Shown: positions 5,854 to 53,387 of the stretch, piece after piece
Numbering within the stretch: position 1 is the stretch's first letter
How the letters are laid out: each line of letters begins with the position of its first letter
Assembly (NCBI GenBank): GCA_018666775.1
Contig: JABIXC010000003.1
Coordinates: 62,001 to 126,000, forward strand
Length of the DNA: 64,000 bases
DNA from: Rhodospirillales bacterium
Lineage (GTDB): Bacteria > Pseudomonadota > Alphaproteobacteria > SMXQ01
Reading direction: 5' to 3'
Notes under the pieces: model-generated
Seen by the model: the letters and a program-made list of their open reading frames with translations, nothing else
Told to the model about the DNA's origin: nothing
Databases searched by the model: none
Translations under genes and position numbers: made by a program

Positions 5854-8706
5854 TCAGGTCTGATCTTTGTCGGCCATCAACCCAACCAATTTATAGGCGA
5901 GTTCCAGTGCTTCCTTCGGGCTCAGCTCATCGGGGTTGATGGACCTGAGTGCTGCTTCCAGGGCACTTTCTTTGGGCAGGGTGCTGGAAGCTTTGGGCAT
6001 CGCTGCAAACAAAGGCAAGTCATCTGAAAGCCTGGAAACCGTGTCTGCTTTTTCGCTGTCTTCCAAGGCACCCAGAACTTCTTCTGCACGATCAAGGGCG
6101 GTAACCGGCAAACCTGCCAACCGCGCAACATGAATGCCATAGGAACGGTCCGCCGTACCCGGGGCAACTTCGTGCAGAAACAAAACCTCGCCCTGCCATT
6201 CCTTGACCTGCATGGCGTGGTTCGACAGGCCCGAAAGGCTTCCTGAAAGCTGGGTTAGTTCATGGTAATGGGTGGCAAACAGGCCGCGGCTTTTATTTAC
6301 TTCGTGCAAATGTTCAATGGTCGCCCAGGCAATGGACAACCCATCAAAGGTTGCCGTGCCCCGACCGATTTCGTCGAGAATAACCATTGCGCGTGGACCG
6401 GCCTGATTAAGAATGGTTGCGGTTTCCACCATTTCGACCATGAAGGTGGATCGGCCCCGGGCAAGATCATCTGCCGCCCCCACCCGGGAAAACAACCGGT
6501 CAACAATGCCAATATGGGCGCCGTCAGCGGGCACAAAACACCCGATTTGGGCAAGGATCGCAAGCAACGCATTTTGCCGAAGGAAGGTCGATTTGCCCGC
6601 CATGTTTGGGCCGGTCAGCAGCCACAGACGACTGGCAGGCGCCAGATCATCAGATGCACCATTGCCCGGTGACAGATCACAATCATTGGGCACAAATTCG
6701 GACTCGCCCGCACGACGTAGCGCATCTTCGATAACAACGTGACGCCCTTTGGTGATCTTGAAGTCGAAACTATTATCAACAATTGGGCGCACATAGCGTC
6801 CATCGCGGGCCAGTTCCCCAAAGCCTGCGGCGATATCGAACCAGGCAAGGGCCCGGGCAGCGAGGGCGATGTGTTCTGCCCTTGCACACACGGCCGCAAT
6901 AAGGCGATCAAAAATTTCTATTTCCTGGGCCATGAACCGCACGCCCGCGCGGGCGATCCGGGTTTCAAGTTCAACCAGTTCATCGGTGTTAAACCGAACG
7001 GCAGAGGCCAGGGTTTGGCGGTGATGGAAGAAATGATCCATCTCATCAAGGGTCACGCCCGGGTCCCTGTCGGGGCCTTTGGCCGACATCATGGCATCGG
7101 CCTGGCCGGGGCGCGCCTCAATGAAATATCCCAACACGTTGTTGTGGCGCACCTTCAGGTTGGCAATGCCCGTGCATTCCCTATAATCACGTTCCAGCCC
7201 GGCAATCAAACGGCGGCTTTCGTCTCTTAATTTTCGGGTTTCATCAAGGGCAGCATCAAAACCCTGGGCAATGAACCCGCCATCGCGGGTAAAGAATGGC
7301 AGGTCTTCGGCCAGTGCCTTTCGCAACAACCCCGTCAATTCGCCATGTTCACCAAGATCGTGCAGCCATTGGTTTACCAGCGGCGGCAAAGGTGCCAAAT
7401 CACTGCTGGCAGCATTACCCGTATCGAGGGCCGCAACCAGTTTCATGGCCGCATCAAGCCCATTGCAAATGGCTGCCAGATCCCGTGGCCCTGCACGCCC
7501 GACGGTAATGCGCGCAAGGGCACGTTCTATATCGGGACTGCCCGAAAGCGATGCCGCCACAGTTTTGCGGGGGCCTTGGGTATGGCCTTCATCATCGACA
7601 AACCACGCAATCCCATCAAGGCGATCGTTAATTGCTTTTGGGTCTGTCAGGGGGGCCGCCAACAACATGCCTAACAATCTGCCGCCGGCACTGGTGCGAG
7701 TGCGATCGATGGCGTCAATCAAACTGCCCCGACGCGTGCCTGATGCGCTGATGGTTAATTCCAGATTGCGCCGGGTTTGGGCATCGATCTCCATGATCGC
7801 GCCCTCGGCAATTTGGCGCGGGGGCTGCAACCGGGGAAATGATCCCTTTTGGGTCAGTTCGATGTAATCCACCAAGGCCCCGGCAGCCGCAAGTTCGGCA
7901 CGACCAAACGTGCCAAACCCGTCCAGATCATCGACACCAAAAAACCGTTCAAGCCGCCGGGCACCATTTTGTGAATCAAACAAACTGGATGGCTGGAGCG
8001 TGATGGCGGTTTCTGTTTCTTCTCCCGCCCGCTGCAGGCCCTGGGCCATATCCGGTTTTGTTGAAAGCCGGTCTGAGACCAGCAATTCGCCCGGTTTAAT
8101 GCGAGCAATGGTTGCGGCAAGGGATGACGGTTCCAGTCGCTGGGTCAGAAAATCGCCGGTGGAAATATCAAGCCATGCAAGGCCCAGAACCCCTTCCGCT
8201 TCTGCCAGGGCTGCCAGAAAATTATTGCTGCGCTGGTCCAGAAGGGTTTCTTCCGTCAAGGTTCCCGGCGTGATCAAGCGCACAACATCCCGGGCGACCA
8301 CTGATTTTGCCCCCCGTTTTTTGGCTTCACTGGGGTCTTCCATCTGTTCGCAAACGGCGACCTTAAACCCGCCCTTGATCAATTTAGCCAGGTAGTTATC
8401 TGCCGAATGAACCGGGACACCACACATGGGGATATCTTCGCCCTGATGCTTGCCCCGGTGGGTCAGGGCAATATCCAGTGCCTTTGATGCGGCATGGGCA
8501 TCATCAAAGAAAAGCTCGTAGAAATCCCCCATCCGGTAAAAAAGCAGACTATCGGGATGATCCTTCTTGATCCCAAGATATTGCACCATCATGGGAGTCA
8601 CAGGCGCATCAGAGGCCACAGAAGCTACTGAGGCCTTATCAGAACCCTTGCCTAAACCTTGGCCAATCCGCTGTTTTTCTGCTGTATTTAGTGCCTTTTT
8701 TGACAC
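5854..8706 (-). CDS. mutS: DNA mismatch repair ATPase MutS
   Basis: Mismatch-recognition protein of methyl-independent or methyl-directed repair. It has 950 residues, a little longer than the usual 850-910 because of a ~35-residue polar N-terminal extension. The mismatch-reading F-x-E motif is FYE at residues 62-64 (GDFYELF). The ATPase Walker [10 protein letters not shown] is near residue 698, followed by the Walker B region [15 protein letters not shown]. The tail ([17 protein letters not shown]) resembles the MutS tetramerisation helix region. The chosen start is GTG at 8706 with GGGGAGG about 10 bases upstream; an internal ATG pair at residues 39-40 could be an alternative start. Divergent from maeB. 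Confidence 0.97.
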
Positions 8707-50431: not shown

Positions 50432-51286
50432 TTAACCGATCCCATCAGCAACGAAGGCATGCAGTGCTTCCGTAACCTCGGGTTCAACCCCAAACCAGCT
50501 GGCAAACCCCGGCTGGGCCTGATGCAAAAGCATGCCCAAACCCCCTGCCACCGGGTTTCCCCGGACACGCGCGGCGGCCAACAGGGGGGTTTCCATTGGG
50601 TTGTAAACAATGTCACAAACCGCAGCTTTTGGGTCCAGGTGATTTAAATCCAGATCTAGCGGTCCTTGGCCCACCATACCTTGGGTCGTGGTGTTGACGA
50701 CAATGGCGGCATCTTCAAGGGTGTGATTACGCTCCACCCAATTGACAACCCGGATATTTGATCCTGTTTGCGAACCAAGACTGATTGCCAGCGCTTCAGC
50801 GCGGGCCAGAGTCCGATTAACAATCCGCACTTCAGGTGCGCCCAAATCCAATAGACCGGCCACCACAGCCCGGGCCGCACCGCCGCCGCCAATGACCATT
50901 GCTGGGCCTATGCTCGCGTCAAAATCCGGGCAATGATGAGCAAGGTTTCGGGTGAAACCAAGGATGTCCGTATTGGTGCCGATCAAGGTGCCGCCATCAA
51001 ACCGAACCGTGTTAACGGCCCCGATGCGCCTTGCTGCTTCATCGGCTTCGTCAACTGCTTTAAGGGCGGCTTCTTTATGGGGCACGGTGACATTCACCCC
51101 CTCAAATCCTGATTGCGCCAATACCCGCAGGGTTTGTGCAAAATGATCCGGCGACACAGCCAAAGGCACATAGGCGCCATCGATGCCATAGTGTTCCAGC
51201 CAGTAATTATGAAGCCTGGGCGATAGGGAATGGGCCACGGGCCAGCCCAGAACGCCTGCCAGTTTTGCCTTGCCACTGATGGTCAT
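50432..51286 (-). CDS. aroE: Shikimate dehydrogenase
   Basis: NADP-dependent reduction of 3-dehydroshikimate in aromatic amino-acid synthesis. 284 residues. Substrate-binding SLSPRLHN near residue 20, NVTVPHKEAAL with catalytic Lys near 70, then the Rossmann motif GGGGAARAVV and the NRT segment. Starts inside the end of maf (4-base overlap), so maf-aroE-coaE-dnaQ form one operon reading away from the origin. Confidence 0.96.
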   Translation of the reverse strand: MTISGKAKLAGVLGWPVAHSLSPRLHNYWLEHYGIDGAYVPLAVSPDHFAQTLRVLAQSGFEGVNVTVPHKEAALKAVDEADEAARRIGAVNTVRFDGGTLIGTNTDILGFTRNLAHHCPDFDASIGPAMVIGGGGAARAVVAGLLDLGAPEVRIVNRTLARAEALAISLGSQTGSNIRVVNWVERNHTLEDAAIVVNTTTQGMVGQGPLDLDLNHLDPKAAVCDIVYNPMETPLLAAARVRGNPVAGGLGMLLHQAQPGFASWFGVEPEVTEALHAFVADGIG

Positions 51287-51894
51287 GATTGCACCAAGTT
51301 ATGATCACGCAAAAAGTGTAGAACCGCCAAGAGTGGCAGCCCAAGAATGGAAAAAAAATCGCCTTCTATTGTCGAGAATAATTGTACCCCATGGCGTTCC
51401 AATTGATAGGCCCCAACTGAATTAAGCAATTGATCCCCTGTTTCTTCCAGATAGCGGTCTAAAAATTCATCGCTGAAATCCCGCATGATCAATTTTGGGC
51501 TTTCCAGATGATGCCATATCTGTTGACCATTCCTGAAGATTGAAACGGCGGTTGCCAATTCATGGGAACGACCCCGAAGTTTCAACAGATGGCTTCTTGC
51601 ATGATCCATATCAGGGGGCTTGTCAAACCAGACGCCATCCATATCCAGAATTTGATCCGCCCCGATCACCAGAGCGTCCGGGGTTTGATTGGAAACCCTG
51701 ACCGCCTTCAAATTAGCAAGGACAAGTGCTGCATCAATGGCCTTGGCATTATCAGCAAACATCGATTGCTTAATAGCATCTTCATCGACATTTGCTGGAA
51801 TAACCTGAAACGAAACTCCGGCATTTTCCAAAAGGGTCCGCCGTACGGTGCTGCTTGATGCAAGGATAAGTGAGGGTGCGTTATTTTTGGTCAT
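51283..51894 (-). CDS. maf: Maf-family nucleoside triphosphate pyrophosphatase
   Basis: House-cleaning pyrophosphatase acting on modified or non-canonical nucleotides (dTTP/UTP-type Maf). 203 residues. Opening LILASSSTVRRTLLENAG, middle VIGADQILDMDGVWFDKP, catalytic-type Asp in the D-Q motif, and the C-terminal FFSILGLPLLAVLHFLRD. First gene leftward from the proposed origin. Confidence 0.93.
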   Translation of the reverse strand: MTKNNAPSLILASSSTVRRTLLENAGVSFQVIPANVDEDAIKQSMFADNAKAIDAALVLANLKAVRVSNQTPDALVIGADQILDMDGVWFDKPPDMDHARSHLLKLRGRSHELATAVSIFRNGQQIWHHLESPKLIMRDFSDEFLDRYLEETGDQLLNSVGAYQLERHGVQLFSTIEGDFFSILGLPLLAVLHFLRDHNLVQS

Positions 51895-52337
51895 AACCTT
51901 TATCTATACTGGTGGGCATGGTGGTTTTTTGATGCCTGTGTATAACCCCACAATAACCTGTTTTACCCGAGTCCCAAAATGTGGGTAAACCCATACTTAT
52001 ACATGGGGCGTTCAAACGATCCTTGTCATGAGACAATCATTTTTTGTTTTTCCACTGGAGGATAAAAAGTTTGCACCCCGTCTTGAAATGGGGATTGTGG
52101 TCTTTCCAAAAAATCTATTCACATGATTCACGTTTTTAAAAGTGCTAATAAATGCAGCTCATCTATCGTTAGTTTTTTTTATCCCCGTTTTTTCCATAGG
52201 TTTGTTTTTATTTGAGCAAAAATATTTTTATGGGGATAACATTTAGCGAATCTCTTTATCCCCATACCCACAGGCCCAACAACAACAACAACCTATTATT
52301 TATAGATTCTTTTAAATGAAATTGAAGTGACCCTAAA
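51895..52337. other. oriC: Probable chromosome replication origin (oriC) between maf and hemE
   Basis: The only gene-free stretch over 300 bases in the window. It is AT-rich, especially 52100-52335, and holds DnaA-box-like 9-mers measured against TTATNCACA. TGTGTATAA at 51937-51945 is a perfect match on the minus strand. TGTGGGTAA at 51980-51988 (minus) and CTATTCACA at 52115-52123 each have one mismatch. TGGGGATAA at 52231-52239 (minus) and TTATCCCCA at 52256-52264 also have one, and TTATCCCCG at 52179-52187 has two. Four GANTC sites (51969, 52125, 52248, 52305) suit CcrM control. The genes diverge on either side. In Caulobacter and Rickettsia the origin is also next to hemE. No protein-coding frame is convincing here. 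Confidence 0.82.
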
Positions 52338-53387
52338 ATGAACGATATGTCTTTATCTGATAAACCTTTGCTCTCTGCATTACGTGGAAACGTGCAATCA
52401 GTACCCCCTGTTTGGCTTATGCGCCAAGCCGGAAGGTATCTTCCTGAATATATGGAAACCAGATCGAAGTCTGAGAATTTTCTACAATTTTGTTATTCAC
52501 CAGAGTTAGCGATTGAAGCAACCTTGCAACCCATTCGTCGTTTTGATCTGGATGGTGCCATCATTTTTTCTGATATTTTGGTGATCCCTGATGCACTGGG
52601 ACAAAAAGTAGGTTTTCAGCCAGGACGTGGGCCGGTGTTAGAAGCACTGGAATCACCAGAGGCGGTTTTAAAACTTTCAAAAGAGAGTGTTCGAAATCAT
52701 TTAAAGCCGGTCTATGAAGCCATTCGGGGTGTTAAAGCAGCGTTGCCCCCAAAGACGACGATGATTGGCTTTGCCGGCGCTCCCTGGACCATTGCGTCCT
52801 ACATGATTGAGGGTGGTGCATCGAAAGATTATGCAACCTTGAAGTCGTGGGCATTTGGAAATCCAGATGGATTATCTGCATTATTTGATATCTTGGTTGA
52901 TGCCATTGGCGATCATCTTTGTGCTCAAATCGAAGCCGGTGCCGAAGTGGTGCAAATTTTTGATAGCTGGGCTGGAATTTTGCCAGCGGAATTATTTGAA
53001 CCCTGGTGTGTCATGCCCATCAGGCGAATTGCCGAAATTGTAAAACGCGCCCACCCTGATGTTCCTATTCTTGCTTTTCCAAACCGTTGTGCATTTGGGT
53101 ATGAACAGATCGCAAATCTTGAAAACATAGATGGTGTTTCAATCGACTCGACCGTTCCGCTGGAATTTGCCCGCGATCACATCCAACCAAACGCGACGGT
53201 TCAGGGTAATCTTGATCCAATTTTACTGGTGACCGGGAATGAACCGATGCGAGCCGAGGCCCGCAGAATTATGAATTGTCTGGCATCAAAACCCTTTATC
53301 TTTAATCTGGGCCACGGCATTATTCCAATCACACCGCCCGATCATGTGGCGGATTTGATTGAAGAAATTCGTAAATGGCGCGCTTAA
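52338..53387 (+). CDS. hemE: Uroporphyrinogen decarboxylase
   Basis: Converts uroporphyrinogen III to coproporphyrinogen III in heme synthesis. 349 residues. Family signatures: PVWLMRQAGRYLPEY near residue 25 with the catalytic-type Arg, ILVIPDALGQ, GFAGAPWTIASYMIEGG and NLGHGIIP near the end. First gene rightward from the proposed origin. Its 3' end overlaps hemH by 13 bases. Confidence 0.97.
   Translation: MNDMSLSDKPLLSALRGNVQSVPPVWLMRQAGRYLPEYMETRSKSENFLQFCYSPELAIEATLQPIRRFDLDGAIIFSDILVIPDALGQKVGFQPGRGPVLEALESPEAVLKLSKESVRNHLKPVYEAIRGVKAALPPKTTMIGFAGAPWTIASYMIEGGASKDYATLKSWAFGNPDGLSALFDILVDAIGDHLCAQIEAGAEVVQIFDSWAGILPAELFEPWCVMPIRRIAEIVKRAHPDVPILAFPNRCAFGYEQIANLENIDGVSIDSTVPLEFARDHIQPNATVQGNLDPILLVTGNEPMRAEARRIMNCLASKPFIFNLGHGIIPITPPDHVADLIEEIRKWRA

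Follow-up and report, generated by a model that had tools for sequence, protein, structure and literature searches.

The gene-free gap between maf and hemE at positions 51895-52337 of the window (the 64,000-nucleotide stretch that was analyzed, corresponding to C3:62001-126000 in an assembly of 19 contigs, 2.41 Mb, and 98% completeness) is very probably the chromosomal replication origin (oriC) of this bacterium, as judged from its sequence and setting. The gap belongs to the already known class of hemE-linked alphaproteobacterial origins; its unexpected part, which matters more than the location of the origin, is a deviant DnaA-trio that goes with an altered residue in DnaA. The gap measures 443 bp, lies exactly between the maf open reading frame (ORF) and hemE, contains no ORF of at least 90 aa, and has an AT content of 63.9%, compared with 47.2% for contig C3. 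These figures bear out the original prediction of an AT-rich, gene-free gap between divergent gene sets, with maf on the minus strand and hemE on the plus strand. To the right, the genes are hemE, hemH, hemJ, and rho; to the left, they are maf, aroE, and dnaQ, with secB farther out.

Replication polarity was assessed by cumulative GC skew, the check that had been proposed for this locus. The 203-kb contig C3 has a single skew minimum, at C3:114536 (window position 52536), which is approximately 200 bp past the gap; the curve falls steadily from the left end of the contig before this point and rises steadily after it. Eight other contigs (C2, C4, C7, C8, C10, C11, C16, and C17) were each sampled at two or more places, and the sign of the skew was constant within each of them except C17, where it turns from plus to minus at a single maximum near 325 kb. 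This is the only maximum sampled, and its pattern is as expected of a terminus. A search for dif returned one site with three mismatches (C17:199605-199626), which was dropped as evidence for the terminus given the skew maximum near 325 kb; as the only dif-like site lies approximately 126 kb from that maximum, either the site is something other than dif or the turn in skew has been shifted. The dnaA gene (C3:14463-15473) is located approximately 98 kb from the gap on a falling, monotone slope rather than at the skew turn; a remote dnaA had been anticipated.

DnaA boxes were scored against TTATNCACA, and the gap holds one perfect match and four matches with one mismatch (Table 1). This part of the earlier box count stood; the claim of one additional two-mismatch site did not, as there are 11 such words in the gap, mostly noise, although the one at 52264 is part of a conserved module. 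At the density of the organism's own genome, chance alone predicts 0.23 boxes with no more than one mismatch per 443 bp (Poisson P of ~5e-6), and a Markov control with the composition of the gap itself gave a mean of 0.73 and a P(>=5) of ~0.0013. In the 1.31 Mb of the genome that was sampled (54%, which leaves some room for a stronger box cluster in the remainder), the gap is the densest cluster and the only 443-bp stretch with five boxes of this quality. A cluster of DnaA boxes above chance is characteristic of hemE-linked origins, and the gap possesses one.

Table 1. Features of the predicted origin and its flanking genes (window coordinates)
Feature	Position	Strand	Basis
maf-family nucleotide pyrophosphatase	51283..51894	-	ORF and family assignment
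Predicted chromosomal origin (oriC), AT-rich maf-hemE gap	51895..52337		ORFs, GC skew, AT content, box density
DnaA box TTATACACA, perfect match to TTATNCACA	51937..51945	-	box scan
DnaA box TTACCCACA, one mismatch	51980..51988	-	box scan
DnaA box CTATTCACA, one mismatch	52115..52123	+	box scan
Weak box TTATCCCCG, two mismatches, with ATCCCC	52179..52187	+	box scan, 6-mer count
TTATCCCCA, one mismatch, includes Caulobacter W-box word TCCCCA	52231..52239	-	box scan
TTATCCCCA, one mismatch, upstream box of tandem pair in unwinding module	52256..52264	+	box scan, family alignment
ATACCCACA, two mismatches, downstream box of tandem pair	52264..52272	+	box scan, family alignment
GC spacer GGCC	52273..52276	+	sequence
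Five CAA trinucleotides; opposite strand 3'-GTT-5' x5	52277..52291	+	sequence, family alignment
AT-rich stretch past repeats, candidate first-melted region, includes AGATTCTTTTAAA (similar in relatives)	52294..52325		alignment
GATTC, GANTC (CcrM-type) site, place common to most family members	52305..52309		family alignment
Other GANTC sites in gap	51969, 52125, 52248		motif search
hemE, uroporphyrinogen decarboxylase, landmark gene	52338..53387	+	ORF; TIGR01464

Paired DnaA boxes were also seen at two other places in the genome. At C16:7535-7566 (TTATCCACAAATGTGGACAAAATTGTGGATAA), two perfect inverted boxes enclose a third box with one mismatch, upstream of an sdhC-like ORF (6898-7350, minus strand) and apparent succinate dehydrogenase genes; this triple box is possibly a DnaA-controlled promoter or a DnaA-titration site. 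At C2:12693-12724, an inverted pair of perfect boxes lies between RuvX/YqgF-like and pyrB-like ORFs, and its 14-nt gap is equal to that of the C16 pair.

Judged by HemE, the closest named relatives are metagenome assemblies labeled "Alphaproteobacteria bacterium" and "Rhodospirillales bacterium," and almost no direct DNA similarity to relatives was found across the whole gap. Because the gap diverges too fast for such a comparison, relatives were compared through k-mers and a short profile. In a set of approximately 48 alphaproteobacterial loci, enrichment upstream of hemE is strongest for DnaA-box words: the top 8-mers, TTATCCCC, TATCCACA, and TATCCCCA, occur at 22, 21, and 19 loci, against 1, 0, and 0 in the hemE coding control. 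Among 6-mers, ATCCCC is found upstream of hemE at the most loci (37 alphaproteobacterial loci), and TCCCCA corresponds to the W-box of the Caulobacter origin, which is a weak DnaA site (PMC4285127, PMC4468827). An origin adjacent to hemE has been established for Caulobacter, and similar positions have been predicted in Rickettsia, Ehrlichia, Wolbachia, and Sphingomonadaceae (PMC1914354, PMC4741004). Like the origins predicted for Sphingopyxis (PMC4741004) and for Wolbachia and Ehrlichia (PMC1914354), the gap lies beside hemE and carries DnaA boxes, and the latter two also exceed their genomes in AT content; their second neighbor is COG1253, whereas here it is maf. The link to hemE is not universal in the class, since Rhodoblastus and some loci labeled Rhizobiales have no more than one DnaA box upstream of hemE (seven such loci were noted); in these box-poor lineages, probably either the origin has moved away from hemE or hemE itself has moved.

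The gap resembles the Caulobacter origin in being hemE-adjacent and AT-rich, in having a few moderate and several weak TCCCCA-type DnaA sites, and in its GANTC sites, with a CcrM-type methylase also encoded by the genome. The Caulobacter origin has COG1806 as its other neighbor (PMC1914354), whereas here the second neighbor is maf; COG1806 (PF03618, a PPPase regulator and the usual origin neighbor) is not universal in this position within the class, and other neighbors occur in accepted origin predictions, so its absence is no bar to membership. It was absent from this genome and from genera g2, g3, and g5 of its family (seven genomes without it were noted), and it is present in genus g4, where in three genomes it adjoins hemE on the maf side. 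Because of this distribution, the maf-hemE junction probably arose when COG1806 was lost while the origin stayed in place. A further difference from Caulobacter concerns the CtrA and IHF sites that mark the Caulobacter subtype and are not universal in the class: neither the strict CtrA site TTAA-N7-TTAA nor the strict IHF site WATCARNNNNTTR occurs in the gap. Some related origins also have no CtrA sites. Four GANTC sites fall in the 443-bp gap, compared with 1.6 per kb in the window, and one of them is within the common AGATTC. The CcrM-like methylase gene (NF050803, 600 bits, below the strict cut-off of 830) lies between rnhB-like and mutY-like ORFs, both named by inspection, and no match to a GcrA-family protein was detected in the genome (assembly ~98% complete); a CcrM-like methylase without a GcrA-family match is an unusual split, if real.

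Within the gap, positions 52256-52325 form a module that runs from tandem DnaA boxes through a GC spacer and five trinucleotide repeats into an AT-rich stretch. Ten family sequences can be aligned in front of hemE in the same order: an ATCCCC-type box, a second box (e.g., ATATCCACA) that is degenerate in some members, a short GC spacer, five triplets, CCT, and an AT-rich stretch, with AGATTC or GGATTC in most of them. A profile built from these 10 sequences, the window's own included, finds the window with an E value of 1.5e-13, and the rest of the 1.31 Mb of the organism's own genome scores at chance (best E value of 0.7). In other alphaproteobacterial families, the profile matches best immediately before hemE, with the orientation unchanged (six loci, plus weaker ones), and the module order is also visible by eye at five loci from further families. 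Relatives carry the box words and the neighboring module at this same place, which was the conservation asked of the original prediction; together with the skew minimum, this supports an origin beside hemE. A regular expression combining a box and triplets was rejected as too permissive in coding DNA (28 matches in 1.31 Mb), and only the profile from the family alignment was specific.

This layout is the same as that of the basal unwinding system (BUS) of Bacillus subtilis, in which tandem boxes and a spacer are followed by DnaA-trios running 3' to 5' from the box and then by the site of unwinding (PMC6669920, PMC8287927). Shared with the BUS (PMC6669920, PMC8287927, PMC10721633) are the tandem boxes, the short GC spacer, the five trinucleotides in register, the AT-rich DNA beyond them, and the strand polarity. 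The BUS calls for a DnaA box with at most two mismatches within 16 nt of the trios, and two boxes here qualify, namely ATACCCACA (spacer of 4 nt) and TTATCCCCA (12 nt). The CAA block has the position and polarity of DnaA-trios, but the middle base is T: the BUS calls for at least three middle-adenine trinucleotides running 3' to 5' from the box, and the corresponding strand here, (GTT)5, has no A.

It is very improbable that the gap serves only as a promoter region between the divergent maf and hemE genes, with the boxes used for transcription control by DnaA. The gap does part two divergent gene sets, and DnaA boxes are found at likely promoters too, such as the triple box before the sdh-like operon; this explanation, however, leaves the skew minimum unexplained, and in relatives the distance from the module to hemE ranges from approximately 30 to 276 nt while the order of box, spacer, repeat, and AT-rich stretch is kept. 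More improbable still is an origin elsewhere, at dnaA, on C2 near 12.7 or 83.6 kb, on C16 near 7.5 kb, or on C7 near 364 kb. Such a location would be favored by the perfect box pairs at C2:12693/12716 and C16:7535/7558 and by the four-box stretches on C2 and C7, but all samples of C2, C16, and C7 have one skew sign, dnaA sits on a monotone slope, and the rival clusters have fewer boxes than the gap.

A narrower doubt accepts the gap as the origin and takes the CAA repeat for a translation or promoter leader of hemE instead of an unwinding element. Translation can be aided by CAA-rich leaders, and in several relatives approximately 57-59 nt separate the repeat from the downstream hemE start. 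We consider this unlikely, as the distance from the repeat to hemE varies widely and the repeat comes after a DnaA box or an ATCCCC word and before an AT-rich stretch.

In the reading favored here, DnaA would bind the cluster of moderate and weak boxes and be loaded from the tandem boxes (52256-52272), across GGCC, onto the minus strand at the five trinucleotides (52277-52291); it would then stretch this block and melt the adjoining AT-rich stretch (52294-52325), where the helicase would enter and from which forks would depart both ways. The sequence itself shows the location and the box cluster; the loading and melting steps are modeled on the Bacillus system, and the GANTC sites may be marked by the CcrM-type methylase. 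Counting against this reading are the missing strict CtrA and IHF sites, the trinucleotides without a middle adenine, and the distance of the dif-like site from the skew maximum.

The canonical DnaA-trio is 3'-GAT-5' with a conserved middle adenine, and trios without it were anticipated (PMC8287927). On the loading strand, the window has 3'-GTT-5' five times and its family relatives have 3'-G(T/A/G)T-5'. Triplets were counted from an anchored alignment, as an automatic best-triplet search misplaced some members (L006 and L010): G comes first in all 50 triplets and T comes third in 49 of the 50, and the middle base is T in 35, A in 12, and G in 3, with the last-triplet column fixed by the anchor and so not independent, and with several rows being pairs from one genus. 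The contacts to the guanine in B. subtilis come from Arg202 and Glu228 and those to the adenine from Asn187 and Glu183; initiation is impaired there when T or G replaces the middle A (PMC10721633). When compared with 8btg, the DnaA of this genome keeps Glu183 and Glu228 but, unlike that of B. subtilis, carries Lys at the position of Arg202 and Tyr at that of Asn187. Among 30 alphaproteobacterial DnaA proteins, this one included, the Asn187 position is Tyr in 29 and Phe in 1; nine more divergent DnaA proteins have Tyr (4) or else Asn, Phe, Leu, Gln, or Arg. Relative to Bacillus, the varying base and the residue that reads it change together, and the constant base retains its contacts, which amounts to a correlation between two groups; within the class, the residue hardly varies, and most of the 39 DnaA sequences compared have Tyr. 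We tentatively propose, at somewhat less than an even chance, a variant alphaproteobacterial trio code, 3'-GNT-5', in which the middle base would be unspecified and Asn187 replaced by Tyr or Phe, with the guanine contacts (Lys for Arg202, and Glu228) retained. No description of this trio pattern was found in the literature searched, which was largely the main text of open-access papers.

The position of the origin is as the hemE rule predicts, and the rule is confirmed in an uncultured lineage without the usual COG1806 neighbor. The current model of unwinding, tested in Bacillus, depends on an amine carried by the middle base of the trio; in this case, layout, outer bases, and periodicity are preserved throughout a family but the middle base is not, and the family's DnaA is without the matching residue. 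The deviant trio and the change in DnaA therefore offer a direct test of how initiators recognize the strand being opened.
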